DNA of 64,000 bases. Source: an uncultured Gammaproteobacteria bacterium. GTDB taxonomy: Bacteria; Pseudomonadota; Gammaproteobacteria; Pseudomonadales; Pseudohongiellaceae. The position numbers and the translations under genes were made by a program. The number at the start of each line of letters is the position of its first letter. The first letter of the stretch is position 1. The notes under the pieces were generated by a model. That model ran no database searches, was not told where the DNA came from, and worked only from the letters and a program-made list of their open reading frames with translations. Below are positions 131 to 13,362 of the stretch, in pieces. The stretch is taken from assembly GCA_913061515.1 (NCBI GenBank), contig CAJXSF010000003.1, positions 1-64,000 of the forward strand. Reading direction: 5' to 3'.

Positions 131-1573
131 ATGGAACTCCATCCCAAATTCCTCGCTGTTTTTGTCGCTATCTACCTACTGAGTGTCCTCATTGCTTATT
201 TCTTCGCGCGCTTTCGTGCGAACAAGAAAATAGACGAATTTCGAACACTTTCGGAGGCGCTCGATACTAGACACAAGGACATTATAGAAGCTGAAGCAAA
301 ACTTCAGGCGGTAACAAATATGCATCAGCAACTTGACGCTGAAACAAAAGATCTGCAGGCGTTGCGTAGTCGTGAGCAGGAGTTATCAGAATCCGTGCGC
401 TCACAGATGCAGCAGTCAGCTTCTATCAACCAGGTGATACAGCAACTAGAGACGAAGCGCGGCAGCCAGGAGTCATTACTACACGAACTCATGACCAAGT
501 TGGATCTCTATACACGGATTGAAGGATTCGTCGATCATGGGCATTTCGAAATGCCTGAGTACTTGTACGAAACAGCGGATCGATTCGTTGAAGAAATTAA
601 ATTGGTTCGGGAAAGCCAACGGCGAATGATTTCGGACAAATCTGCTGTCCATTTTCCAGCAACGACTACTGTTTCGGATGATCCTTCGACCAACAAGAAA
701 ATCTTAGGAGGGCAGTCAAAACTTATGCTGACCGCCTTTAATATTGAGTGTGATAAATTGATTGGTCGAGTCAAACCGAGCACCTTCCCTGCAACTTTGG
801 AAAGAATTGAGAAGTTAGCGAATTCACTTGAAAAGTCAGCTGCTTCGTTTGCGTGTGGTTTCGACATCGATTACGTAAAACTTAAGTTTGAAGAGTGCCG
901 CCTTCAATTTCAATTCACACTAAAGAAGCAGGAAGAAGTTGAAGAGCAGCGTGCTATTAGGGAACAAATTCGCGAGGAGCAACGTGCAATCAAAGAGTAC
1001 GAGCGCGCGGTCGCGGATGCGGAAAAAGAAGAAAAAATGTACCGAGACCTTTTAGATAAGGCTCGGCAGGAGCTGCAATCGATTACAGATGAAGAACGAG
1101 CGGCAGCCGAGGCACGAATTGCTGCGCTTGAGCAACAGCTTGCGGAAGCAGAAGCAAAGGAACAACGTGCTAAGAGCATGGCCGAGCAAACGCGCAAGGG
1201 GCATGTTTACGTAATCAGCAATCTAGGTTCATTTGGGAAAGATGTGTACAAAATTGGCCTCACTCGTCGTCTTGACCCTTTGGATCGAGTAAAAGAGCTT
1301 GGAGATGCTAGCGTTCCGTTTTCATTTGATGTCCACGCGATGATCTACGTTGATGATGCTCCGGCCCTTGAGGCAGCGCTGCACAGGGAGTTCAATGATG
1401 AACGCGTCAATCAGGTGAATCAGAGAAAAGAGTTCTTTAGGGTTAATCTGAGTCAAGTAAAGAATGCTGTCGTAAAGATCGCGGGTTTGGAGGCAGAGTT
1501 TAAAGAGACCATTGCTGCTGAGGAGTATTACGAGTCGCAGCGGCTAAGAGGGGGCGCAACAAATGTTGCATAG
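131..1573 (+). CDS. Membrane-anchored coiled-coil protein with DUF4041 and T5orf172 (GIY-YIG-like) domains
   Basis: Counting from the in-frame TTG at 125, residues about 8-29 form one hydrophobic transmembrane segment. Residues 35-120 are a charged coiled coil, and about 130-265 fit the DUF4041 region. Residues 265-355 are a second Glu/Lys/Arg-rich coiled coil. Residues 359-445 are a T5orf172/Mug113 domain of the GIY-YIG nuclease superfamily, with VYVISN, then YKIGLTRR and later HREF supplying the expected Tyr, Arg and Glu. GGAG at 116-119 lies 5 bases before TTG 125 and 11 before ATG 131, so either start is possible. The family is common in phages and accessory regions; nuclease activity and role are inferred. 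It may be co-transcribed with the truncated gene before it. Confidence 0.8.
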   Translation: MELHPKFLAVFVAIYLLSVLIAYFFARFRANKKIDEFRTLSEALDTRHKDIIEAEAKLQAVTNMHQQLDAETKDLQALRSREQELSESVRSQMQQSASINQVIQQLETKRGSQESLLHELMTKLDLYTRIEGFVDHGHFEMPEYLYETADRFVEEIKLVRESQRRMISDKSAVHFPATTTVSDDPSTNKKILGGQSKLMLTAFNIECDKLIGRVKPSTFPATLERIEKLANSLEKSAASFACGFDIDYVKLKFEECRLQFQFTLKKQEEVEEQRAIREQIREEQRAIKEYERAVADAEKEEKMYRDLLDKARQELQSITDEERAAAEARIAALEQQLAEAEAKEQRAKSMAEQTRKGHVYVISNLGSFGKDVYKIGLTRRLDPLDRVKELGDASVPFSFDVHAMIYVDDAPALEAALHREFNDERVNQVNQRKEFFRVNLSQVKNAVVKIAGLEAEFKETIAAEEYYESQRLRGGATNVA

Positions 1574-1609
1574 CCGTGGAAGGTCTAAGCTGTGGGCCAA
1601 AAAGTCTCT

Positions 1610-1642
1610 GCAGGTGGTCTTTGACCTGCCACGCATTTTTTT
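1610..1642 (+). terminator. Possible rho-independent terminator
   Basis: GCAGGT (1610-1615) pairs with ACCTGC (1624-1629) across an 8-base loop. After six bases there is a run of seven T (1636-1642). The stem is short and the T run is offset, so it is a weak candidate. It lies 36 bases after the stop of the GIY-YIG gene. Confidence 0.4.
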
Positions 1643-1734
1643 CGAAAAAGTGCCTGTCGCCTCAAATGCACTTGAGCGCAGGCGTTCTGTATTCCGACCG
1701 TCAACTCTGAGCAACAGTAAACAGATGACAAGTT

Positions 1735-2049
1735 ATGAACCCAAAACCTTCCGGAGGCCTAGTCCATGAATTGCCCGATGATTTGTCGGCAGCATTAACA
1801 GAAGAAAACCTTGTTGATACTTGGCAAGCCTTGTCGCCAATTGGCCGTAACGAGTTTATTTGTTGGATTGAAGATGCCAAGCAAGAGAAAACTAGAGTCA
1901 AACGAATAGGCCGAGCTACCGAAGAGCTTTTAGAAGGAAAAAAGCGACCATGCTGCTGGGTGGGGTGTATACATCGCACCGACAAAAAACCTAGCAAATG
2001 GCAACAGGATGTTTTGATCGATAGAAAGAAAAAGCCTGCGGCAAAATAA
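1735..2049 (+). CDS. YdeI/OmpD-associated (OmdA) family small protein
   Basis: This 104-residue protein matches the OmdA/YdeI pattern. LPDDLSAAL near residue 13 is followed by WQALSPIGRNEFICWIEDAK, then the basic segment TRVKRIGRATEELLEGKKR. The motif RPCCWVGCIHR follows, with three Cys and one His close together, and the tail is lysine-rich. Full-length YdeI proteins carry an extra N-terminal domain; this is the short form. Members have been linked to peptide and bacteriocin resistance, but the biochemical role is unknown. No strong ribosome-binding site is seen before ATG 1735. It stands 60 bases before the cupin gene on the same strand. Confidence 0.7.
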   Translation: MNPKPSGGLVHELPDDLSAALTEENLVDTWQALSPIGRNEFICWIEDAKQEKTRVKRIGRATEELLEGKKRPCCWVGCIHRTDKKPSKWQQDVLIDRKKKPAAK

Positions 2050-2108
2050 AGCCTAGAGCAGGGCGTTCCGATTGGGTTTGCTAAGTATGTGTTCATAGGA
2101 GAATAACA

Positions 2109-2423
2109 ATGTCTGGAAGTTACCCAAAGAAAATAAAAGAATTACCGCTCTTCGATGGCCGCTTCGATGCCTATAAACTAGAGGCAAAAGGCAGTGATGT
2201 GTTATTTGCGTCCTATCCCGCCGGTACAAGAATCCCTGCGCACACACATGACACTGAAAATCATGGTGTTATTACAAAAGGGGAGTTAACTCTTACAATG
2301 GCAGGTAAAACCCAAACCATTGGGGTGGGGGAGTGGTATCACGTGCCTGCTAATGTGGAGCATTCTGCATTTTTTGAGGTTGAAACCGATGAAATTGAGT
2401 TTTGGTTTCATGAAAGCACATAG
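2109..2423 (+). CDS. Small cupin-domain protein
   Basis: A single-domain cupin of 104 residues. Motif 1 is seen at PAGTRIPAHTHDTENHGVI followed by GELTLTMAG, giving the His-x-His and later acidic/His metal ligands. Motif 2 is VGEWYHVPANVEHSAFF with the closing His. It is probably a metal-binding beta-barrel of unknown substrate; cupins this small act as isomerases, dioxygenases or sensors. AGGAG at 2097-2101 lies seven bases before ATG 2109, supporting the start. Confidence 0.75.
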   Translation: MSGSYPKKIKELPLFDGRFDAYKLEAKGSDVLFASYPAGTRIPAHTHDTENHGVITKGELTLTMAGKTQTIGVGEWYHVPANVEHSAFFEVETDEIEFWFHEST

Positions 2424-2502
2424 AATACCTCTTTGACCGTAAACGGTTTCTAAGAAAGGCTCACAGGCCTGAGCCCAGCAACAATCAACAGGATAAACCT
2501 TA

Positions 2503-3900
2503 ATGCACGAAATCAACTGCCCACACTGTAAAAAAGCTTTCAAAATCGATGAAGCTGGTTACGCCGATATATTAAAACAGGTTCGCGACACAGAGTTTGA
2601 AGATCAGCTCCACGAACGCTTGGCTTTGGCCGAGAAAGAAAAGCTTAGCGCGGTGGCGTTGGCGAAGGAGCAAATTGCCAATGAGCTACAAAAAAGTGCC
2701 GCAAAGAAAGAGGCGGAGATACAGGATCTAAAAGCAAAACTGGATGCAGAGAAAACTGCGCAAGAGTTGGCTGTGGCTAAGGCATTGGCCGGCGTTGAAA
2801 AAGATCGTGATGAGATGGCCTATCAACTTAAGCAAGCTCGGCAAGAGACCGAAGCGGCGCTGCGATTAGCCGATGCGAATCATTCGAGTAAGTTGCAAGA
2901 GGCTGCTGCTAAGAAGGATCTAGAGATACAGGAGCTTAGGGCTCAGCTTACTGCGGGTGAGAGCGAAAAGAAGCATGCGATCTCGCAAGCGGTGAGTGAG
3001 GCAGAAAAGCAACGGGATCAACTGAAAAACGCTTTAGAGCAGGCAGAACTACAGAAAAAATTGGCTGAAACTTCACTAAAAGAAAGCTACGAAGTGCGCA
3101 TAAAAGATCGTGACCAAGAGATAGAACGCCTGCGAGACATGAAGGCGCGCTTGTCTACCAAAATGGTAGGGGAGACTTTAGAGCAACACTGCGAAACGGA
3201 ATTCAACCGCATTCGTGCAACCGCCTTCCCGCGGGCGTATTTTGAGAAAGACAACGATGCGCGAATGGGCAGCAAAGGCGACTATATCTTCCGGGACTTG
3301 GACGAACACGAAACCGAAAGCGTGTCGATCATGTTTGAGATGAAGAACGAGAGTGATCAAACCGCCACTAAGAAGAAAAACGAAGACTTCTTAAAAGAGC
3401 TGGATAAAGATCGCAATGAGAAAAAATGTGAGTATGCGGTGTTGGTGTCATTGCTAGAGCCAGAGAGCGAACTCTATAACTCGGGGATCGTCGATGTTTC
3501 GCATCGCTACCCTAAGATGTATGTCATTCGTCCGCAGTTTTTTATCCCTATGATTACCTTGCTGCGCAATGCGGCGCAGAACGCTCTGCAGTATAAAAAT
3601 GAGCTTGCAGTGATTAGGGAGCAGAACGTCGATATCACCAATTTCGAGAATGAGTTAGACGAGTTCCGTACGGGGTTTGCTCGCAACTATGAGCTGGCTT
3701 CTAAGAAGTTCAAAACGGCAATCTCTGAGATCGACAAGACCATTGATCATTTGCAAAAAACCAAAGATGCGCTTTTAGGCTCTGAGAACAATCTTCGCCT
3801 TGCCAACAATAAGGCGGATGATTTGACTGTGAAGAAACTCACCAAGAAGAACCCTACAATGGCTGCTAAGTTCGCTGAGCTTAAAGACGAGCAAGGGTAA
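2503..3900 (+). CDS. DUF2130 family coiled-coil protein
   Basis: This 465-residue protein opens with a half zinc ribbon ([11 protein letters not shown]6 and C9). A long Lys/Glu/Ala coiled coil follows from about residue 30 to 215. About residues 220-400 are the conserved DUF2130 region, with [25 protein letters not shown] and a basic FEMKNE segment, and the C-terminus is helical. Residues of the type D...FEMK resemble the core of restriction-endonuclease-like folds, so a nuclease role has to be considered, but function is not established. The start ATG 2503 lies 79 bases after the cupin gene. A large palindromic repeat begins at the base after the stop codon. Confidence 0.8.
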
Positions 3901-4030
3901 TCAACAAATCAAGCAAATCAAAAATCAAGGGGTCAGATTACTTGAAAATCAAGTAATCTGACCCCTTGATTTGTTCAAGTAATCTGACCCCTTGATTTGC
4001 TTGATTTGTTGATTTGCCCCCTTGATTTGC
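3901..4030. repeat. Nested palindromic repeat (REP/MITE-like)
   Basis: A 24-bp arm (3922-3945) pairs perfectly with 3949-3972 around a 3-base loop. The right arm is repeated directly: 25 bases at 3949-3973 recur at 3975-3999. An outer 21-bp arm (3901-3921) is the exact reverse complement of 3992-4012. The octamer TTGATTTG occurs five times between 3966 and 4029. The core GGGGTCAGATTACTTGA resembles the palindromes that accompany REP-associated IS200-like transposases, but no transposase lies in the window. It starts right after the DUF2130 stop and could also end that transcript. I saw no second copy in this window. Confidence 0.85.
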
Positions 4031-4101
4031 TCCAACTGTTGTTTTTCACCCAAAATGGTTAAGATGCAGAGCATCTAAAACACCAATAAGGGTAAGTAAG
4101 T

Positions 4102-4839
4102 ATGAGTTCTCCTGTACCACTGCGTAATAACATCCACGCCAAGTTAAAAGTCATTGAATCCGGTGATTACCGCCGTTATAAAGAAAATCACCTTGTTCCC
4201 GTCGTTATACAGGATTTCTTCACGCTAGCTGCCGAGTTTCCACTGGTTTTCGTCAAGATCGGCAAGACTGACGACTTTATCCCTGTCGCTATGATGGGCC
4301 TGCGTCCAGGTCACAACCTCTACTGCCAAACAGAGCAGTACAAAGGCACCGTCATTCCTGTGAGTTTCGGCAACGCCCCGTTCGCTATAGTCCCAGTTGA
4401 CGAAAAAAGCGATCAGCTCATGATCTTGGTGGATGAAGAAAGCCCACTAGTGAGTGAAACCGAAGGCGAAGCCCTGTTTGACGACAAGGGCGAGCGCACT
4501 GAATACCTTAAAAACCGGATCGAAAAACTCACAAGAGTCTCCGACCAAACTCATAACACAAAAGAGATGTGTAAAAGACTAGTAGAGCGCAAGCTGCTCA
4601 CTACGCAGACAGTGCAGCTACAACACCGCCCTGATGCCCAACGTTACAACATCGAAGGTATCTACGTGGTTGATGAAATCGCCTTGAATGAAATGTCTGA
4701 TGAGGGTTACCTAGAGCTGCGCAAGATGGGCTTATTGCCAGTGATATACGCGCACTTGACCTCATTGCAGCAACTACGCCGTGTGGCGGAGATGCAATAC
4801 CATGCAGACAAAGCTGCACCGGCTGAAAAACCAGCCTAA
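4102..4839 (+). CDS. SapC family protein
   Basis: This 245-residue protein fits the SapC family. Conserved stretches are FFTLAAEFPLVFVKIG, PVAMMGLRPGHNLYC, YKGTVIPVSFGNAPFAIVP and, near the C-terminus, FVVDE-type and MSDEGYLELRKMGLLPVIYAHL-type sequences. No signal peptide or membrane segment is visible. The family was named from genes near S-layer proteins, but its activity is unknown and its members are often cytosolic. ATG 4102 follows the purine-rich AAGGGTAAGTAAG. It is separated from the next genes by 177 bases including a hairpin, so it is probably its own unit. Confidence 0.85.
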   Translation: MSSPVPLRNNIHAKLKVIESGDYRRYKENHLVPVVIQDFFTLAAEFPLVFVKIGKTDDFIPVAMMGLRPGHNLYCQTEQYKGTVIPVSFGNAPFAIVPVDEKSDQLMILVDEESPLVSETEGEALFDDKGERTEYLKNRIEKLTRVSDQTHNTKEMCKRLVERKLLTTQTVQLQHRPDAQRYNIEGIYVVDEIALNEMSDEGYLELRKMGLLPVIYAHLTSLQQLRRVAEMQYHADKAAPAEKPA

Positions 4840-4853
4840 TCGACTTTTAGTGC

Positions 4854-4881
4854 CCGACGTCAGCATTAACACTGGCGTCGG
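4854..4881 (+). terminator. Hairpin after the SapC-family gene
   Basis: CCGACGTCAG (4854-4863) pairs with CTGGCGTCGG (4872-4881) with a single G-U wobble across an 8-base loop, 14 bases after the stop. No T run follows, so it may act as a transcript end or processing structure and not as a classical terminator. Confidence 0.4.
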
Positions 4882-5016
4882 TGCGCGATTAATCCTCGAA
4901 CATTGCAATAAAACCGCAATTTAGCCTTATTCCTACGCAAAAACCTGTGTATCCTGCCTTCAGTGTTTTAATAAGCACTAGAATATTCACCCTATAAAGA
5001 GGGTTAGCAGAGTCTC

Positions 5017-6273
5017 GTGGAAGCTATAGAACCGCTTTACATTAGCAATGTTTTGATTGGTCTAAGCATAGCGCTTTGCGTGACGTTTGTGGCCATTGGG
5101 CATGACAAAAAGCTCCTAACTTGGGCTGTGGCTTTTGCTCTTTACCCAATATCTTTCCTTATTTTTGGTTTACGCCCAATGTTGCCTAGCTGGTTTACTA
5201 TTACTGCTGGCAATACAGCGCTGATTGCGATGTTTGCCATGTTCACCGAAGGCCTATGTCGGCTGCACGGTATTAAGTTTCCCCGTATAGCTATTTGGTT
5301 GCCACTCCCTATTGGTATCCTCGGCTTTATCTACCTTTTAGATGACCTGCAGGGACGTATCGATTGGGGGGCTTATCTGGCAGCACTGCATAGCTTTTTT
5401 GTGATCTACATAGGACTGATGTCCCTTCAGCAAAGCGATGGGCGCGGCCGCTGGATAATGTTTGCAGCAATATTAGGCTCCTCCGGCACTTTTTTAATTA
5501 GGGCAGCGCTGCTGCTTGCGGGCTATCGAGCATCAGTTAACTTTTTAGTGCCCGGTTTGGCACAAACAATTTTGTTCTCTATGGCGATGGTGTTTTTAGT
5601 CATGTTTGCCATCGGCCTTTTGGTTACCTATAAGGAAAGGGCAGAGCGGGAGATTACGCGCTTAGCCCTACAAGATCCGTTGACCCAATTAGGCAATCGC
5701 CTAGTGCTGCAAGAGCGTCTAGAGAACGCCTTTATCAATAGTGTAGATGAAAACCGCTATGGCGCTTTGATGATGTTGGATCTGGATCACTTTAAAGAGC
5801 TCAATGACACCCATGGGCATGGATTAGGCGATCAGCTGTTAATCGAGGTGGCTTATCGTTTAAAAGACTGCGTCAGTGATTCGGACACAGTGATTCGCCT
5901 TGGCGGAGATGAGTTCGTCTTGTTAATCGAAAATCTTGATGCGGATGAAGGCTTGGCTACACAAGAGGCCGAAACGATTAGCCAACGTGCCTTGAGAAAA
6001 CTCACCGTGCCTTACCATTTGCAATTGAATGATGGCCAGCCTCTGGCTAAGGGCAGGCTGGTGTACAATCTAACAGTCAGCATTGGGGTCGCCTTGTTTA
6101 AAGGAAAGGCATTGGGCCGCGAAGATTTGTTGCGCAACGCCGATACTGCCATGTATAAAGCCAAGCAACATGGACGCAACCGAGTCCAGCTCTATCAGTT
6201 TGGCTTAGAGAGCGCAGAAACCAGCCGCTTGAATCCTAAATTCCGCGCGCAAGCACTTGCCTCACGAATCTGA
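5017..6273 (+). CDS. Membrane diguanylate cyclase, first of three tandem paralogues
   Basis: The protein has 418 residues. Residues 1-208 hold about six or seven hydrophobic segments, and the last leads into the linker YKERAEREITRLALQDPLTQLGNR. The GGDEF domain follows with the signature GGDEF at 296-300, so it should condense two GTP into cyclic di-GMP. The inhibitory RxxD site is replaced by SDSD. A loop carries DGRGRW, shared in similar form by the next two proteins. The start is GTG at 5017, chosen by alignment with the paralogues. It lies 89 bases before the next copy. The sensory input of the membrane part is unknown. Confidence 0.88.
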   Translation: MEAIEPLYISNVLIGLSIALCVTFVAIGHDKKLLTWAVAFALYPISFLIFGLRPMLPSWFTITAGNTALIAMFAMFTEGLCRLHGIKFPRIAIWLPLPIGILGFIYLLDDLQGRIDWGAYLAALHSFFVIYIGLMSLQQSDGRGRWIMFAAILGSSGTFLIRAALLLAGYRASVNFLVPGLAQTILFSMAMVFLVMFAIGLLVTYKERAEREITRLALQDPLTQLGNRLVLQERLENAFINSVDENRYGALMMLDLDHFKELNDTHGHGLGDQLLIEVAYRLKDCVSDSDTVIRLGGDEFVLLIENLDADEGLATQEAETISQRALRKLTVPYHLQLNDGQPLAKGRLVYNLTVSIGVALFKGKALGREDLLRNADTAMYKAKQHGRNRVQLYQFGLESAETSRLNPKFRAQALASRI

Positions 6274-6362
6274 ACCTTTGGGATAAACAGACAATCGTCA
6301 TCACTTAATGGCCATGCTAATATGACGGGATTTTCCTACAGAAGTGTTACAGGTGTAGTCAA

Positions 6363-7562
6363 TTGTCTGAACTTCAGCTGCTCTTTCTCGTCAATACTGC
6401 CGTCGGCTTTGCACTATCGTGGTGTGTTCTTGTCGTGGCTTACGCCAAAGACCGGCAATTGCTTTTGTGGGCTGCCGCCTTCGCTATTCATGGCATAAGC
6501 TATGTGTTATTGAGTTTTCGCGGCACTATTCCAAACTTCTTTTCCGTATTAGTGGCCAATGCCTTATTAGCCTCGATGTTGGCGCTTTTTACCGAAGGCA
6601 TCTATCGCTTCGAAGAATTACGCCCACCTAGGCTATTAATCTGGTGGCCGATCCCTGTCACCGTTATCACTTTCTGGATATTCAGCCGCAATTTCGATAT
6701 GCGCGTGATCATTGGTGCAGTCTTATCGAGCTATCAAACAGCTTTTTTGGTCTGGCGAATCGCCACCGATTTCGCTGAAAAGGAAGGCCGAGGCAAATGG
6801 ATCATCATCACTGCGGCGGTGATCACCACGGCCATGTTTGTTTGCCGTGCCATATTCTCTTTAACTGGCAATAGCTTGATCTTGGCCATTAGTAGCAATA
6901 ATCCAGTGCAGTCGATTACTTTTGTGGGCTCTATTGTGGGGTTGATCATGTTCGCCTTTGGGCTATTAGTAATGTTCAAAGAGCGTGCTGAGCATGAAAA
7001 TTTCCGTTTGGCGATGCATGACCCTCTAACGCAGCTAAGCAATCGGCGTGTTTTAGAAGTAGAGCTGCAAGAGGCAATGCGAAAAAGTGCCAAGACGCAT
7101 GAGTTTGGTGCGGTGTTGTTGTTGGACTTGGACCGCTTTAAAACACTAAATGACACATATGGCCACTCAATAGGAGACCAGGTGTTAGTAGAGGTGGCAT
7201 ATCGCTTGAAAGAAAGCGTAAAAGCCAAAGACTCGGTAGTGCGGCTGGGTGGGGACGAGTTTGTCTTATTGCTTCCCTCTCTAGGGAGTGAGCCGCGAAC
7301 GGCCCGCGAGAACGCTGTGATTGTGGCTAACCGCGTGCTGACACAGTTATCCCAGCCCTATAATTTATTGTCGATGTATGGGGAATCCGAAACGCCAGCA
7401 GTGACGTATAAAGGCAGTTGTAGCATTGGTGGCGTGTTTTTCGACTCCGCCAAACTCAGCCCTGCCGAGCTTTTAGAACTGGCTGACAAGGCGATGTATC
7501 AATCCAAGCAAGAAGGGCGTAATCGAGTGACTTTCCAAGCAATGGAACAAGAAGGGCTCTGA
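6363..7562 (+). CDS. Membrane diguanylate cyclase, second of three tandem paralogues
   Basis: The 399 residues share the layout of the preceding protein. A multi-pass membrane region (1-205, with EGRGKW in a loop) is joined by the linker FKERAEHENFRLAMHDPLTQ to a catalytic domain with GGDEF at 296-300. The residue that should be Arg of the RxxD inhibitory site is Lys (KAKD), so feedback inhibition may be weak. The start codon is TTG at 6363, preceded by AGGTG; no ATG lies near the aligned N-terminus. It is closer in sequence to the third copy than to the first (for example FRGTIPNF and FRGYIPDF-like segments). Confidence 0.88.
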   Translation: MSELQLLFLVNTAVGFALSWCVLVVAYAKDRQLLLWAAAFAIHGISYVLLSFRGTIPNFFSVLVANALLASMLALFTEGIYRFEELRPPRLLIWWPIPVTVITFWIFSRNFDMRVIIGAVLSSYQTAFLVWRIATDFAEKEGRGKWIIITAAVITTAMFVCRAIFSLTGNSLILAISSNNPVQSITFVGSIVGLIMFAFGLLVMFKERAEHENFRLAMHDPLTQLSNRRVLEVELQEAMRKSAKTHEFGAVLLLDLDRFKTLNDTYGHSIGDQVLVEVAYRLKESVKAKDSVVRLGGDEFVLLLPSLGSEPRTARENAVIVANRVLTQLSQPYNLLSMYGESETPAVTYKGSCSIGGVFFDSAKLSPAELLELADKAMYQSKQEGRNRVTFQAMEQEGL

Positions 7563-7752
7563 ACTAAGCCTTAGCAATCTTAGCTACCTCGTTCGTCTAT
7601 GCAGCGTAGTGAACGAATCGCAAAATGTTTTTTGATCGAAAATAAACAATGTAGGAATATTGCCACTATTTTGTGGCAATTCTTATATACTCCATATAAC
7701 GCCAATAAAGCACAGGGAGTTTCGCAGCAGCATTGCCGCGAATTATATTGCA

Positions 7753-8937
7753 TTGACAGATATTCAACTCTTCATAGCCAATATTGCCGTTAGCTTTTCG
7801 CTTTCGATGTGTGTGTTATTAGTTGCCTATGGACGCAATCGCTTATTACTACTTTGGGCGGCGGCATTCGGCATTCACTCGCTTAGCTATTTCTTATTAG
7901 CCGTACGCGGTTATATTCCTGATTTTGTTTCAATTGTCATTGCCAACACCTTGATATCGGCCATGATCGCCCTGTATGTCGAGGGCATCACGCGCTTTAA
8001 TGAGCGGCCAATCCATCCAGCCATTATATGGTCACCAGCGGCGATTATCTTTATCAGTTACTGGGTGTTCATTGGCGATTTCGATGCCCGTGTAGCTATC
8101 GGCAGTGTGGTCTCTGCATTTCAAACTGCAACCCTTTTGTGGGTCGTGTTAAAAGGCTTTAACGAGCGTAGTGGGCGTGGCAAGTGGATTTTGCTAGCTG
8201 CTACCGTGATGAGCGTGGCAATGTTTGTTTTCCGTGGCGCAGTAGCGATCTTTGGCTCCACCGCTATCTCAACAATGTCAGGCTTAGCGATTGTGCCTAT
8301 GGTCGTTTCCGTGGGGGCAATGGTGATTCTCATCATGTTTGCCTTTGGTCTTGTGGTGGTATTTAAAGAGCGTGCCGAGCAAGCTAACTTTGAATTAGCC
8401 TTAAAAGACCCACTAACGCAACTGGGCAATCGTCGAATGTTAGAGATGGAATTAGAACTCGCGTTGAATGCTAACGCAAGAAGCGGCGAGATCGGCGCGA
8501 TTTTGATGTTAGATCTGGACCACTTTAAACCGCTCAATGATCGCTATGGTCATGGCTATGGCGACCAGTTGTTGAAGGAGGTCGCGTTTCGAATTAAAGA
8601 GTGTGTCAAGTTCAACGACGTGGTTGTGCGCCTAGGCGGAGATGAGTTTGTCGTGTTAATTACTGATCTGGGCTCAGATGCTCAGCAAGCTCGCTCAAAG
8701 GCTTCAGTGGTAGCAAGTCGAATTCTCAATGAAATTGCGCGGCCATTGTCCTTTCTGCCAGTGAGTAACGAGCAAAAAGCTACCGAACCATTCGAATTCA
8801 CTTTCAGTTGTAGTATTGGAGTGGTGCTTTATTTCGATAAAGATGTTGAGCGCGATATCTTACTAAAGCGAGCGGATCAGGCCATGTACGCAGCCAAGCA
8901 AGGTGGCAGAAATCGAGTAGCCTTCTTTCAAGAGTAA
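7753..8937 (+). CDS. Membrane diguanylate cyclase, third of three tandem paralogues
   Basis: From TTG 7753 the product has 394 residues and begins MTDIQLFIANIAVSFSLS, which lines up with the start of the second copy. The frame is open upstream to 7660, but that extension has no counterpart in the paralogues. The membrane region (1-204, SGRGKW loop) is followed by FKERAEQANFELALKDPLTQ and a GGDEF motif at 295-299. The inhibitory site reads KFND, so Lys replaces Arg. No clear ribosome-binding site precedes TTG 7753, so the exact start is uncertain. The gene lies 190 bases after the second copy and may have its own promoter. Confidence 0.85.
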   Translation: MTDIQLFIANIAVSFSLSMCVLLVAYGRNRLLLLWAAAFGIHSLSYFLLAVRGYIPDFVSIVIANTLISAMIALYVEGITRFNERPIHPAIIWSPAAIIFISYWVFIGDFDARVAIGSVVSAFQTATLLWVVLKGFNERSGRGKWILLAATVMSVAMFVFRGAVAIFGSTAISTMSGLAIVPMVVSVGAMVILIMFAFGLVVVFKERAEQANFELALKDPLTQLGNRRMLEMELELALNANARSGEIGAILMLDLDHFKPLNDRYGHGYGDQLLKEVAFRIKECVKFNDVVVRLGGDEFVVLITDLGSDAQQARSKASVVASRILNEIARPLSFLPVSNEQKATEPFEFTFSCSIGVVLYFDKDVERDILLKRADQAMYAAKQGGRNRVAFFQE

Positions 8938-8966
8938 TGGCTTAGCGGCTCACTGCTTGCAGCTTT

Positions 8967-9821
8967 TCATTTATCTTTGTCTAGCAAACCACCACAAATC
9001 CTACAAAAGACCGCATCGGTTTGATGGTGTTCAGCGTTGCAATGTGTGCATTGAATCTTGCGCGAGTTGGAAGGGTTATTGCGATGCTGAAATTCCTGCA
9101 TGAGCTCCGCACCAATAATACCCGTAGGCACGGCAATGATGGCATAACCACAGATCATCGCGATGGCAGCCACAGCCTGCCCAAGGGGAGTATGAGGGGT
9201 GATATCGCCATAGCCGACGGTAGTGATGGTGACGATTGCCCAATAGATGCTTTGCGGAATATTGCTGAATCCATTATCGGGGCCTTCGATTATGTACATC
9301 AAAGTGCCAAAGATCACGATTAGGTTTAACACGGCAAACAAGAATACAAATATTTTGCGCCGCGTATTGATCAACGCGGTAAACAGCAGGTTTGCTTCAC
9401 CGATATAACGGAATAATTTCAGGACACGGAAAATCCTCAATACTCGCAAGAAACGAATGACGACTAGGAAGCTTGCGGTAGGGAAGAAGAAACTCACATA
9501 GGTGGGCAGTATCGACAGGAGGTCAATCACGCCATAGAAACTTGTAATATAGCGCTTGGGTTCGGATGAGCTATAGATACGTAAACCATACTCTATGGTG
9601 AACGCAAGGGTAAAGAACCATTCCAAGCGGTATAGGGCGCGTTGCCCAGATTCACTTAAAATTCCTACTGAGTCGAGCATTACCGCCGCAACACTGGCGG
9701 TAATCATAATCATCAGGATTATGTCGAAAAGCTTGCCGGCTTGTGTTTCGTAGCCAAAGATAACTTCGGATACTTGATCTTTTATTGTGGGTTCTGGCTC
9801 TGGGGCTTTCTTTGCGGTCAT
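8967..9821 (-). CDS. Voltage-gated-type potassium channel with C-terminal zinc ribbon
   Basis: The protein is a six-transmembrane ion-channel subunit of 284 residues. An S4-like helix carries repeated Arg (VIRFLRVLRIFRVLKLFRY), and the pore loop contains the selectivity filter TTVGYGD. After the last helix a short tail bears two CxxC pairs (CTHC and CRIC), a small zinc ribbon not present in classic KvAP or Kch channels. ATG at 9821 is preceded by AAAAGG; a longer frame begins at GTG 9854. It is on the same strand as, and 70 bases after, the efflux channel gene, but a functional link is not evident. Confidence 0.85.
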   Translation of the reverse strand: MTAKKAPEPEPTIKDQVSEVIFGYETQAGKLFDIILMIMITASVAAVMLDSVGILSESGQRALYRLEWFFTLAFTIEYGLRIYSSSEPKRYITSFYGVIDLLSILPTYVSFFFPTASFLVVIRFLRVLRIFRVLKLFRYIGEANLLFTALINTRRKIFVFLFAVLNLIVIFGTLMYIIEGPDNGFSNIPQSIYWAIVTITTVGYGDITPHTPLGQAVAAIAMICGYAIIAVPTGIIGAELMQEFQHRNNPSNSRKIQCTHCNAEHHQTDAVFCRICGGLLDKDK

Positions 9822-9891
9822 TCGCTGCCTTTTGGATTGATGAGCTAAAGCCACACTTTAGCCCATCATCTCGGCAACCGCTAGCATCGGC

Positions 9892-11307
9892 TTATGGGGC
9901 CTCTTTCTCCCAACCGCCACCCAATGCTTGGTAAAGATTAACGGTGGTGTTTAGTTGCGATAGCTTGGTGTCCAAATAGCTGTTGCGGCTATTGAATAGG
10001 GTGTTTTGCGTCGTGAGTACGGTTTGGAAATCACTAACGCCTTCTTCGTAGCGTACTTGGGCAATTCGGAAAGATTCCTCAGCGGCGCTAAGGTTTTGCA
10101 AGGCGACGTCAACCAACTCATTTTGCACCTGCATATTGCTAAGCAGCACCTCGATTTCATTGAAGGCATTGAGCACGGTCTTGCGATAATCCGCAAGGCT
10201 GCTTTCGAGTGTGAGCTCGGAGCGTTCTACATTGCGTGCGCGCTGGCCATTGTCGAGCAACGTTTGCAGCACGGACGCATTGAAATTGAGGAAGGTATCA
10301 GGCGAGCTGAGCAGTTCGGTTAACGAGGTGCTGCCAGCACTGAAATTACTGGTTAGGGCGATGTCGGGGAAATATTCATTGCGCACGATATCGACACTCG
10401 CGGTAGCACTGCGCAGCGCTGCTTCGGCTTGCACGAGGTCAGGGCGGCGTAATAACAGCTCTGAGGGAATGCCAGGGGCGATAGCCGGCACATTCACATC
10501 GGCCAGCGTCTCGCCTTCGATGTTGAATCCTTGAATACCATTGCCGCTGAGCAGAGCAAGCGAGGCCAAGGCCGATAGCTCACTCTGTTTTAGGCTACTG
10601 AGCGTGGCCATTTCTCGTTGCAGGGCGATTTGTTGTTGCAAGGCTTCTATGGGCACGGCGACGCCGGCTTCAACGCGCGCATTGGCAATATCGCTAATCG
10701 ATTGGGCGTTGGCCACGTTCTGCTCGGCCGCGGTGATCTTGTCGCGAATCAACAGCAATTGAAAATACGTCGAGGCAGAGGTGCCAAGAGTCGTTAGGGC
10801 AACATCGGCCAGTTGCGCGGCACGCGATTCATAATCGGCGACGGCTTTGGTGTAGATAGCAGGTCGGCTAATGACATTGCCATAGCTAAGCGAGGCGCCG
10901 AGTTCTAAAGGCACGTTTGGGCTGTTGCTAGTGCTGTTACCATCCACGCGCGATTCGTTATAGCTAGCGCCGGTGCCAATGGTGACGCTACCGCTAGGCA
11001 ATAAGTCGAACCCAGCTTCGCGCAATGTAATCTGGGCGCTCTCGAGATTACGGCGATTGTTCGCCAGGTCTAAGTTCTCTTGCGAGACTTGCTCGATCAA
11101 GCGGCTAAGCTCTGGGTCAGAAAAATTCTGCCACCACGCAACGCTTGGCCACTGGGGTGTTGCTTGGTTTGTATCCACGGTCCAAGCCTGCGGCACATCG
11201 GTGTCGGCAAGAGAGGGGACTTCTGTGTTGACACAGGCGCTTAGCGCGATGGCTATACAGGTAGACAAGGCGCTGCGAGCTAATATTTTTTTCGATAAAT
11301 AACGCAT
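9892..11307 (-). CDS. Outer-membrane efflux channel lipoprotein (NodT/OEP family)
   Basis: This 471-residue outer-membrane factor has a lipoprotein signal ending in the lipobox LSAC (C25). Two repeated outer-membrane-efflux domains follow, rich in long helices (ESAQITLREAGFDLLPSG and LRSATASVDIVRNEYFPDI-type segments). It forms the TolC-like exit duct across the periplasm and outer membrane. It is the last gene of the macA-macB unit, 12 bases after macB, and is therefore the likely partner of MacAB. It may also serve EmrAB, which has no channel of its own here. AGGA lies ahead of ATG 11307. Confidence 0.9.
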   Translation of the reverse strand: MRYLSKKILARSALSTCIAIALSACVNTEVPSLADTDVPQAWTVDTNQATPQWPSVAWWQNFSDPELSRLIEQVSQENLDLANNRRNLESAQITLREAGFDLLPSGSVTIGTGASYNESRVDGNSTSNSPNVPLELGASLSYGNVISRPAIYTKAVADYESRAAQLADVALTTLGTSASTYFQLLLIRDKITAAEQNVANAQSISDIANARVEAGVAVPIEALQQQIALQREMATLSSLKQSELSALASLALLSGNGIQGFNIEGETLADVNVPAIAPGIPSELLLRRPDLVQAEAALRSATASVDIVRNEYFPDIALTSNFSAGSTSLTELLSSPDTFLNFNASVLQTLLDNGQRARNVERSELTLESSLADYRKTVLNAFNEIEVLLSNMQVQNELVDVALQNLSAAEESFRIAQVRYEEGVSDFQTVLTTQNTLFNSRNSYLDTKLSQLNTTVNLYQALGGGWEKEAP

Positions 11308-11319
11308 AATTCTATAATC

Positions 11320-13362
11320 CTATTCGTTTGCCAATGCCACGACTGGGTCAAGGCGTGCAGCTTTGCGCGCTGGGGTGAAGCCAAATATCAAACCGGTTGC
11401 AGCGGCACTGCAAAACGCTAATATCATTGGCGCAGAGGTAAATTTAATCGCCACGCCAAAGTTTTGCATCAATAGCCCAACACTTACCCCGAGCGCGACT
11501 CCTATCAAGCCTCCTACGCCAGAGACCACGATCGCCTCAGAGAGGAATTGAGCAAGAATATCGTTCTGCCTTGCACCAGTGGCCATACGAATACCGATCT
11601 CTCGTGTGCGTTCTGTCACCGACACTAACATGATGTTCATGACGCCGATCCCGCCTACTAAGAGTGAAATCGCCGCAACCGAGCCCAGTAGCATGGTCAT
11701 GGTGTCTTGGGACGCCGAGACGGTGTCTAGAAGCTCTGCACTATTAAAGATACGGAAATCTTCGGCGCCGTGACGGGCGATCATATATTCACGCAGATTG
11801 TCTTCAGTCTCGTCGATGATGTCGATGTTATCGACGGCAACAGTGATCGAGCGTGCAAAGGTTTGACCAAAGAGGCGCAGAGCGCCCGTTTTTAGAGGCA
11901 CAAACACGGCATCATCTTGATCGCTGCCGCCAAAACCAGAGGCGCCTTTCGAGGTCAGCACACCGATGATTTGAAATGGCACATTACGAATGAGAATGTA
12001 CTCGCCCAAAGGGTCACCCCCGTTGGGGAACATCTCTTCGGCGACCGTCGAGCCCAACACTGCTACTGAGGTATATTCATCGCTGTCTTCCCGTGTAAAA
12101 AACACGCCTTGTGCCAATGGCCAGCTGCGTAGCTCGGGCAGTGATTCGCCTGTCGCCGTCACCGTAGTGGAGTAGTCCTGTCGCCCATAACGCACGGTTA
12201 AGTTGCCCTGTAATTCAGGCAAAGTGCCAAGCACATTGGGCAGATCGGCGAGCACCGCATCGGCATCATCGAATGTCAGGGTTGAGGGAGCCGAGCGCCT
12301 TTGCCCGGGAATCCTTGCTGCCTGGAGTGTCAGCATATTCGTGCCGATAGCGCTGATGCGATCGACAATCTGCTGACTTGCGCCTTCACCAATGGCCAAC
12401 ATGGCCACAACTGAGGCAACCCCGATGACTATGCCCAATAGGGTCAAGATGGTGCGGAATATGTTGGAGGTCAAAGAGCGAAACGCCATGTTGATCGCCT
12501 CACCAACACCGGCCAGAGGCGATGAGGCTTTGCGATTCATAAATAGCTCACGCAATTTTTGATTGCCTTGGTGTTTATGCTCGACACCTTCCTTACGCTT
12601 GTCCTCAATGACTTGGCCATCTCTAAATTCAATTGCACGGTCAGCCTGCGCCGCGATTTTAGAATCGTGGGTAATCAAGATAACGGTATGACCTTGTTTG
12701 GCGAGATCTTTGAGTAGCGCCATTACTTCGACGCCGCTTTTAGAGTCCAGGGCACCAGTGGGTTCGTCAGCAAGAATGATATTGCCGCCGTTCATCAGTG
12801 CGCGGGCAATTGAGACGCGCTGCTGCTGGCCACCGGATAGTTGGCTAGGGCGGTGATCGAGACGGTCACCTAAGCCAAGGGATGCCAACAAAGATTCCGC
12901 TTTAAAGCGTCGTTCGTTGCTAGAGAGCCCAGCATAGATCGCGGGGATCTCGACGTTTTCTTCTGCACTGGCATGGGGAAGAAGATTATAGCTTTGAAAA
13001 ACGAAACCGAATGCCTCGCGGCGCAGCCAGGCTAGATCATCCGGAGCGAAGTCTTTGATATTGCGGCCAGCAAACAAATAAGTGCCGCTGCTAGGTTTGT
13101 CCAAGCACCCTAGTATGTTCATCATCGTGGATTTGCCAGACCCAGACTGCCCCATGATAGCGACAAACTCGCCCATGTGGATTTTAAGGTTGATGCCACG
13201 CAGCGCTTTCACCTCAACGCCACCACCGGTAACGAAGGTACGCGTGATATCGCGCAGCTCAATAATCGGGATATGGCTGTCGATAGCAGTTTCGTTCAAC
13301 TTACTCTGACCTTCAGTACGATCGTTGGGCAGAGATGCGCCATCGATTACGCCTGTGTTCAT
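11320..13362 (-). CDS. macB: MacB-type ABC transporter, ATPase fused to permease
   Basis: The 680 residues comprise an N-terminal ATPase and a C-terminal FtsX-like permease. The ATPase has Walker [10 protein letters not shown], signature [15 protein letters not shown] and Walker [12 protein letters not shown]. The permease has one helix near residue 310, a large periplasmic domain (about 330-540) and three helices at the end. MacB dimers power extrusion of macrolides, peptides or siderophores from the periplasm through an outer-membrane channel. The N-terminus has about 30 extra residues relative to E. coli MacB. Its ATG overlaps the macA stop by four bases (ATGA) with GGAGG upstream, so the two are translationally coupled. 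Confidence 0.92.

Follow-up and report, generated by a model that had tools for sequence, protein, structure and literature searches.

Three tandem membrane GGDEF proteins of a Pseudohongiellaceae bacterium, old paralogs lacking the inhibitory-site arginine

Membrane-sensor diguanylate cyclases are common, and the ligands of many of them are not known. In GGDEF cyclases, the primary inhibitory site (I-site), RxxD, is placed five residues before the GGDEF motif, and the same source reports YfiN of E. coli as an active membrane cyclase without I-sites (PMC10127611). MASE1, MHYT and 7TMR-DISM are presented as membrane input regions of cyclic di-GMP proteins (PMC8846402). The present work concerns three adjacent genes, A, B and C, at positions 5017 to 8937 of a stretch of 64,000 nucleotides (hereafter the window; contig CAJXSF010000003.1, assembly GCA_913061515.1) from an uncultured bacterium of the Pseudohongiellaceae. 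We estimate at about 0.7 the probability that A, B and C are three active membrane-bound diguanylate cyclases which arose by old duplications and were kept as separate genes, with a seven-helix input, a product inhibition weakened in B and C or absent in A, a low translation from non-ATG starts, and copies that are set separately. The kind is already known, and the array and its unnamed membrane input are modest additions; no paper title naming either of them appeared among the matches listed by a search with sparse coverage of subscription journals.

Three paralogs with an intact catalytic domain

The genes and their domains, as delimited from the list of open reading frames (ORFs), Pfam, the membrane profile and the GGDEF scan of the own genome, are the following.

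5017 to 6273, forward strand: gene A, membrane region with seven transmembrane helices (7-TM) and GGDEF, 418 aa, GTG start (ORF list, Pfam)
6363 to 7562, forward strand: gene B, 7-TM membrane region and GGDEF, 399 aa, TTG start (ORF list, Pfam)
7753 to 8937, forward strand: gene C, 7-TM membrane region and GGDEF, 394 aa counted from TTG 7753 (ORF list, sister-species comparison)
5017 to 5631, forward strand: membrane input region of A, without clear Pfam match (membrane profile, Pfam)
6363 to 6977, forward strand: membrane input region of B (membrane profile, structure model, Pfam)
7753 to 8364, forward strand: membrane input region of C (membrane profile, Pfam)
5665 to 6183, forward strand: GGDEF domain of A (GGDEF scan)
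7011 to 7526, forward strand: GGDEF domain of B (GGDEF scan; fold match to solved GGDEF domains)
8401 to 8916, forward strand: GGDEF domain of C (GGDEF scan)

A first-pass annotation made from the sequence had described three tandem membrane GGDEF paralogs aligning end to end, and the ORFs bear this out, with full-length identities of 39% (A/B), 39% (A/C) and 51% (B/C) and intergenic gaps of 89 nt (A-B) and 190 nt (B-C). The GGDEF motif starts at residues 296 (A), 296 (B) and 295 (C, from TTG 7753), as it had claimed. Nearly whole-length matches to B in the own genome were these three genes alone, among 28 places at E <= 0.001, and the membrane profile likewise found these three alone at E <= 1e-10. 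The shared GRG(K/R)W loop, also part of the description, is present in the own genome (GRGRW in A, GRGKW in B and C), but it does not extend to all relatives, where forms such as GQGRW, GQGRF and GNGSW occur.

The Pfam GGDEF family (PF00990) was matched with E = 2.9e-42 (A), 1.3e-41 (B) and 7.7e-41 (C), corresponding to 144.6, 142.5 and 140 bits versus a curated cut-off of 23.8. At E <= 0.1 it was the only family found in each protein, plus one match in B below its cut-off. The alignment showed the GGDEF and D-x-D-x-F-K motifs and their surroundings to be intact in all three; a full-length catalytic domain is shared with GGDEF cyclases generally (PleD, WspR, DgcR). The structural model of B matched solved GGDEF domains with Z of 20.3-24.7 among the 50 matches listed; the top fold was 4iob (YfiN/TpbB of P. 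aeruginosa; Z 24.7, root-mean-square deviation 1.7 over 160 residues, 36% identity), with others within 1 Z. YfiN/DgcN (TpbB) is thus the top solved fold, and it is membrane-bound like the three proteins. Nevertheless, its tetrad is GLRH where B and C have KxxD, the array proteins have a seven-TM input instead, and their scores for the YfiN/DgcN equivalog NF007423 (140.9, 145.1 and 134.9, through the GGDEF part only) lie below its cut-off of 325.

It is very unlikely that one or more copies are, in the main, platforms which bind cyclic di-GMP or GTP or interact with other proteins, instead of cyclases. GGDEF proteins with receptor roles do exist, and the own genome holds 29 GGDEF places above the curated cut-off, 26 of them outside the array, of which 10 are without an intact motif by our pattern. 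However, the GGDEF motif and its catalytic surroundings are intact in every gene of the array, and receptor GGDEFs usually bind through the I-site, which is precisely the altered part here.

Inhibitory site and membrane input

Compared with GGDEF cyclases generally, the three proteins differ by a membrane input without clear Pfam match and by the lack of the primary I-site arginine. None of them has RxxD five residues before GGDEF, and the alignment gave the tetrads that had been stated initially.

5875 to 5886, forward strand: primary inhibitory-site tetrad of A, SDSD for RxxD (alignment)
7221 to 7232, forward strand: primary inhibitory-site tetrad of B, KAKD (alignment)
8608 to 8619, forward strand: primary inhibitory-site tetrad of C, KFND (alignment)

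Lysine at the arginine position with the aspartate kept (KxxD) was found in 8/8 B and C sequences, the window's two included, and only one of the 20 alignment rows having this column (G016_2) shows RxxD. In the own genome RxxD is present in 0/3 array genes versus 14/16 other GGDEF places with intact motif, a count which excludes the 10 of 26 places mentioned above (one-sided hypergeometric probability about 0.01, computed by hand, on three paralogs that are not independent). Also, RxxD occurs in 79 of 84 motif sites of 80 loci taken from a scan of genome contigs, and in 8/9 readable motifs of distant proteins, from the class or the order, whose membrane region is weakly similar (one of these eight has EGGKF for GGDEF, and 2/11 have no readable motif). 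Since distant relatives and other GGDEF sites keep RxxD, the loss of the arginine appears specific to this lineage; it would have left A without an RxxD-like site, and B and C with KxxD.

As to the effect of this change, a Ki of 16.0 uM is reported for Alr3599 of Anabaena, a KXXD cyclase, the values of two RXXD enzymes being 3.7 and 2.42 uM (PMC13075795). Alr3599 shares its KxxD tetrad with B and C, although it comes from a different organism and the comparison covers the tetrad alone. Because the published KXXD enzyme is still inhibited, if more weakly, feedback in B and C is likelier reduced than absent. The proposal that feedback is lacking is partly supported: the arginine is missing in all three proteins, but B and C keep KxxD. 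Judging from the tetrads, product inhibition should be weakened in B and C and absent in A. At a further column, which we take, from PleD, to be a secondary inhibitory site, K in B is aligned with R in DgcR, and A and C have N and A, respectively (counted by eye).

For the membrane input, residues 1-218 of B were modeled with seven main helices (3-28, 31-51, 58-83, 90-94/96-106, 111-136, 143-168, 181-217; pLDDT 70.4, pTM 0.70) and a short extra helix at low confidence (171-176), the last main helix continuing into the stalk. Lysine and arginine make up 125/531 residues of the predicted cytoplasmic loops versus 24/601 of the periplasmic ones (21 rows, loops from the model), and this positive-inside bias fits a topology with the N-terminus outside and GGDEF inside. 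A signal would be received by the seven-helix region, passed through a continuous helix (TM7 into the cytoplasmic stalk) to a GGDEF dimer, and turned by this dimer into cyclic di-GMP. Over 21 near and 11 distant rows, the residues kept were R162 (32/32), R114 (30/32), W36 (30/31) and R53 (29/31). The three arginines are predicted near the outer face, which suggests an acidic ligand.

MASE1, MHYT and 7TMR-DISM sensors would have the same role. There was no clear Pfam match to the membrane region in the 12 regions of alignment A2; the best was 7TMR-DISM_7TM (PF07695; E 0.0023, in 1/12 regions), which was not seen in the three window proteins at E <= 0.1. The profile check against MASE-type domains, proposed with the first description, returned none: the 12 Pfam families listed at E up to 10 for these 12 regions include no MASE or MHYT model, no positive control being run. 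The membrane profile matched at least 7/293 genomes of the order at E <= 1e-10, own genome included, and at least 9/369 genomes of the class at E <= 1e-3 (own genome included, and one probable chance match, in G511, which resembles a small transporter by eye). The class matches had E of 6.6e-13 to 8.3e-4, and the distant ones carried GGDEF, PAS-GGDEF or, in one weak HATPase case, kinase-like outputs. None of the 80 loci related through the GGDEF part scored well with this profile (best E 0.067). With the membrane part, Foldseek gave no match at E <= 0.001, the best being no better than 9.4e-3, and with VIA-align the highest Z (up to 16.2) was to a designed GPCR-like fold, followed by adiponectin receptors, GPCRs and microbial rhodopsins. 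These fold matches may reflect a common helical-bundle arrangement, and we draw no function from them.

A mere anchor or localisation device, not a ligand sensor, would agree with the fact that no ligand is identified and that the structural matches are to generic seven-helix proteins. We consider this quite unlikely, as the near-invariance of R162, R114 and R53, also with PAS-GGDEF or kinase-like outputs, would be needless for a plain anchor. More tentatively, and as a speculative possibility only, the region could represent a seven-helix sensor family unnamed in Pfam, which several genera of the class would share in their GGDEF, PAS-GGDEF and kinase-like proteins and which would bind an acidic or lipid-like ligand via R53, R114 and R162; the tandem set would then act as a graded input, its cyclases being weakly translated, resistant to feedback and equipped with different sensors, and their outputs being summed.

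Origin, start codons and expression of the copies

A tree was built with 21 proteins, three of them partial (B of G012 as its 300-aa second part, G002 as a 264-aa frame, G008 as a contig-end part), the terminal stop of row G016_1 being trimmed. B grouped with its orthologs of G001, G006 and G012 (support 97/94), and C with its orthologs of the same three genomes (99/96), the B+C grouping being supported by 98/99. These clades place the B/C split before the split of the two species pairs, that is the window's genome (G000) with its sister species G001, and G006 with G012. A falls in another clade, with G005, G002, G023 and G253 (100/99); the tree does not settle its position inside, its nearest relative is G005_A (53% identity), and the second copy of G005 was placed weakly (71/64). 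From the sequences, A split off earlier than B and C. The orthologs of the sister species are 87% (B) and 83% (C) identical. A recent duplication or an assembly duplication was considered and ruled out, as copies of 39-51% identity with separate B and C orthologs elsewhere indicate that the duplication is old and not an artefact. The first-pass annotation had named single genes in relatives together with a recent assembly duplication as evidence against it; we looked for these and did not find them. On the contrary, for B as for C a separate ortholog is present in each of three other species (one B being frameshifted), as expected for old retained copies.

Nonsynonymous (dN) and synonymous (dS) divergence was calculated with our own short counting script. 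Versus G001, dN/dS was 0.041 (B) and 0.044 (C) at a dS close to saturation, and B and C are under strong purifying selection. Between A and B, dN was 0.771 in the membrane part and 0.465 in the GGDEF part, whereas between B and C the two values were 0.453 and 0.409. Between the species pairs, the membrane part of B has changed less than its GGDEF part (dN 0.266 vs 0.427), and C shows no such difference (0.430 vs 0.428). The suggestion that the copies receive different signals thus finds weak and mixed support, from the pair A/B and hardly from B/C.

The same values bear on the alternative of functional redundancy, in which gene dosage would be the only reason for keeping the copies. The common architecture and intact catalytic motifs, the B and C sensors diverged little more than their GGDEF parts, and a copy number of 0 to 3 in the genus, where the membrane profile matches 10/14 genomes at E <= 1e-10, are in line with it. 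We nevertheless hold redundancy to be unlikely, given that each of B and C is conserved on its own in both species pairs, with 51% mutual identity, and that A and B differ more in the membrane part than in the GGDEF part. Judging from the protein sequences, the most likely arrangement is that of three membrane inputs which drive the synthesis of cyclic di-GMP, its self-inhibition being weakened.

The starts chosen by homology are GTG 5017 (A), TTG 6363 (B) and TTG 7753 (C), and none of the three genes, whose open frames span 421, 413 and 433 codons, has an in-frame ATG upstream of its conserved first helix. The frame of C is open back past TTG 7660, where the ORF tool places the start. This candidate was ruled out by the C ortholog of G001, which has TAA directly 5' of a GTG at the position equivalent to TTG 7753, so that C starts at 7753 and not at 7660. 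The TAA inside the G001 match is read as the gene's own stop and not as a disruption, since the frame is open for the 394 aa which align with C. Codons 2-18 of C show 7 synonymous and 0 nonsynonymous changes versus G001, and the TTG of B and its preceding stretch are conserved there. With this stop and this kept TTG, the non-ATG starts noted at the outset are upheld. Homologous starts are ATG for B of G006 and G012, GTG for C of G006, TTG for C of G012 and GTG for A of G005; altogether, GTG or TTG stands at the homology-chosen start in 9/11 compared genes. Such starts would keep translation low.

Comparison of the upstream regions revealed a conserved element in front of C.

7680 to 7693, forward strand: TTCTTATATACTCC, conserved -10-like element, 60-73 nt 5' of the C start (upstream-region comparison)

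It occurs once in the whole own genome. Upstream of C in G001 and of B in G006 all 14 bases are identical, and B of G012 is preceded by a close form of them. In 6/11 compared upstream regions, TATACT is found at -66 to -71; B of G000 and G001 is without the conserved element. Inspection by eye showed TATCCT around -67 in A, and no shared -35 in these regions. Since the element precedes C and relatives' copies, C probably has its own promoter, and an own promoter, at least for C, would allow the copies to be set separately. A generic scan of 4800-9100 gave 9 terminator-like sites versus 5.7 expected (standard deviation 1.9), including a hairpin at 7659-7680 in the B-C gap; nothing was built on these sites. 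Riboswitch control was considered and rejected, no Rfam family reaching its gathering threshold within the window.

Turnover of the locus and significance

The array lies between two genes which served as locus markers.

4102 to 4839, forward strand: SapC-family gene, locus marker in G001, G006 and G012 (Pfam, locus comparison)
8967 to 9854, reverse strand: ion-channel gene (Ion_trans), locus marker in G001, G006 and G012 (Pfam, locus comparison)

The synteny comparison with relatives, another check proposed at first, found the same locus in four species (G000, G001, G006, G012), with gene gain, loss and reordering. G000 and G001 have B before C, G006 and G012 have C before B, and the pair is on a single strand in each. 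A was not found in G001 (a 93% complete genome) by the membrane-profile search. A block containing a 165-aa protein, a histidine kinase, a response regulator, a 150-aa protein and a MipA-like protein is next to the pair, in G001 towards SapC and in G006 towards the channel gene. Both the gene order and the block placement would be accounted for if a larger block had been duplicated and then lost reciprocally. The pattern is one of gene birth and death rather than of a fixed operon. A-type relics of gene loss are seen in G002 (membrane part alone, L148 2148-2942) and in G007 (L149 2262-2387). The frameshifted B of G012 (L147 3727-5069) is, in its longer part, under strong purifying selection versus G006 (dN/dS 0.047), and represents a recent loss or a sequencing error.

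Several observations weigh against three active, separately kept and separately set cyclases with weak feedback. Four of the 14 genus genomes have no match to the family, G008, G009 and G011 hold one more distant copy each, the match of G007 is a 42-residue remnant, the copy of G002 is without the GGDEF part, and B of G012 is split by its frameshift; because of these losses, remnants and frameshift, the set is dispensable in some species. The exact promoter-like element precedes C alone among the three window genes, and the generic scan of 4800-9100 found no excess of promoter-like sites (4 vs 5.9 expected). The membrane model was built on three sequences, with moderate confidence, and a lysine at the I-site may still bind cyclic di-GMP. 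Also, no neighbour gene is constant enough across the compared loci to name a pathway.

Among these neighbours, proteins of the relatives' loci and of the window were compared through matches above 38% identity only. In G001, the interval between C and the channel gene (L145, G001:C6:286500-306499, 1265-12160) is a dense signalling cluster of receiver-EAL, GGDEF-EAL, PAS hybrid kinase, receiver-EAL-GGDEF and PAS kinase proteins, none of which has a match above that identity in the window. The 165-aa protein was located close to the array in three species, with two copies in G006, at 51-76% identity, and had no Pfam match at E <= 1e-5.

L145 14873-15370; L146 4496-4993 and 8842-9339; L147 1204-1701: copies of the 165-aa protein (locus comparison)

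In the window, the channel gene is followed at 9892-13362 by a putative TolC-like gene (read from the sequence) and a MacB-like ABC transporter gene; the putative TolC-like gene and the channel gene are found together in G012 as well.

The seven-helix input with its three nearly invariant arginines is a concrete target for ligand finding. Also, three natural paralogs with SxxD, KxxD and KxxD make it possible to measure the effect of the lysine and the evolution of feedback strength. If it is true that the copies sense different things, the array would be a small natural example of how several inputs are summed in a single second messenger.

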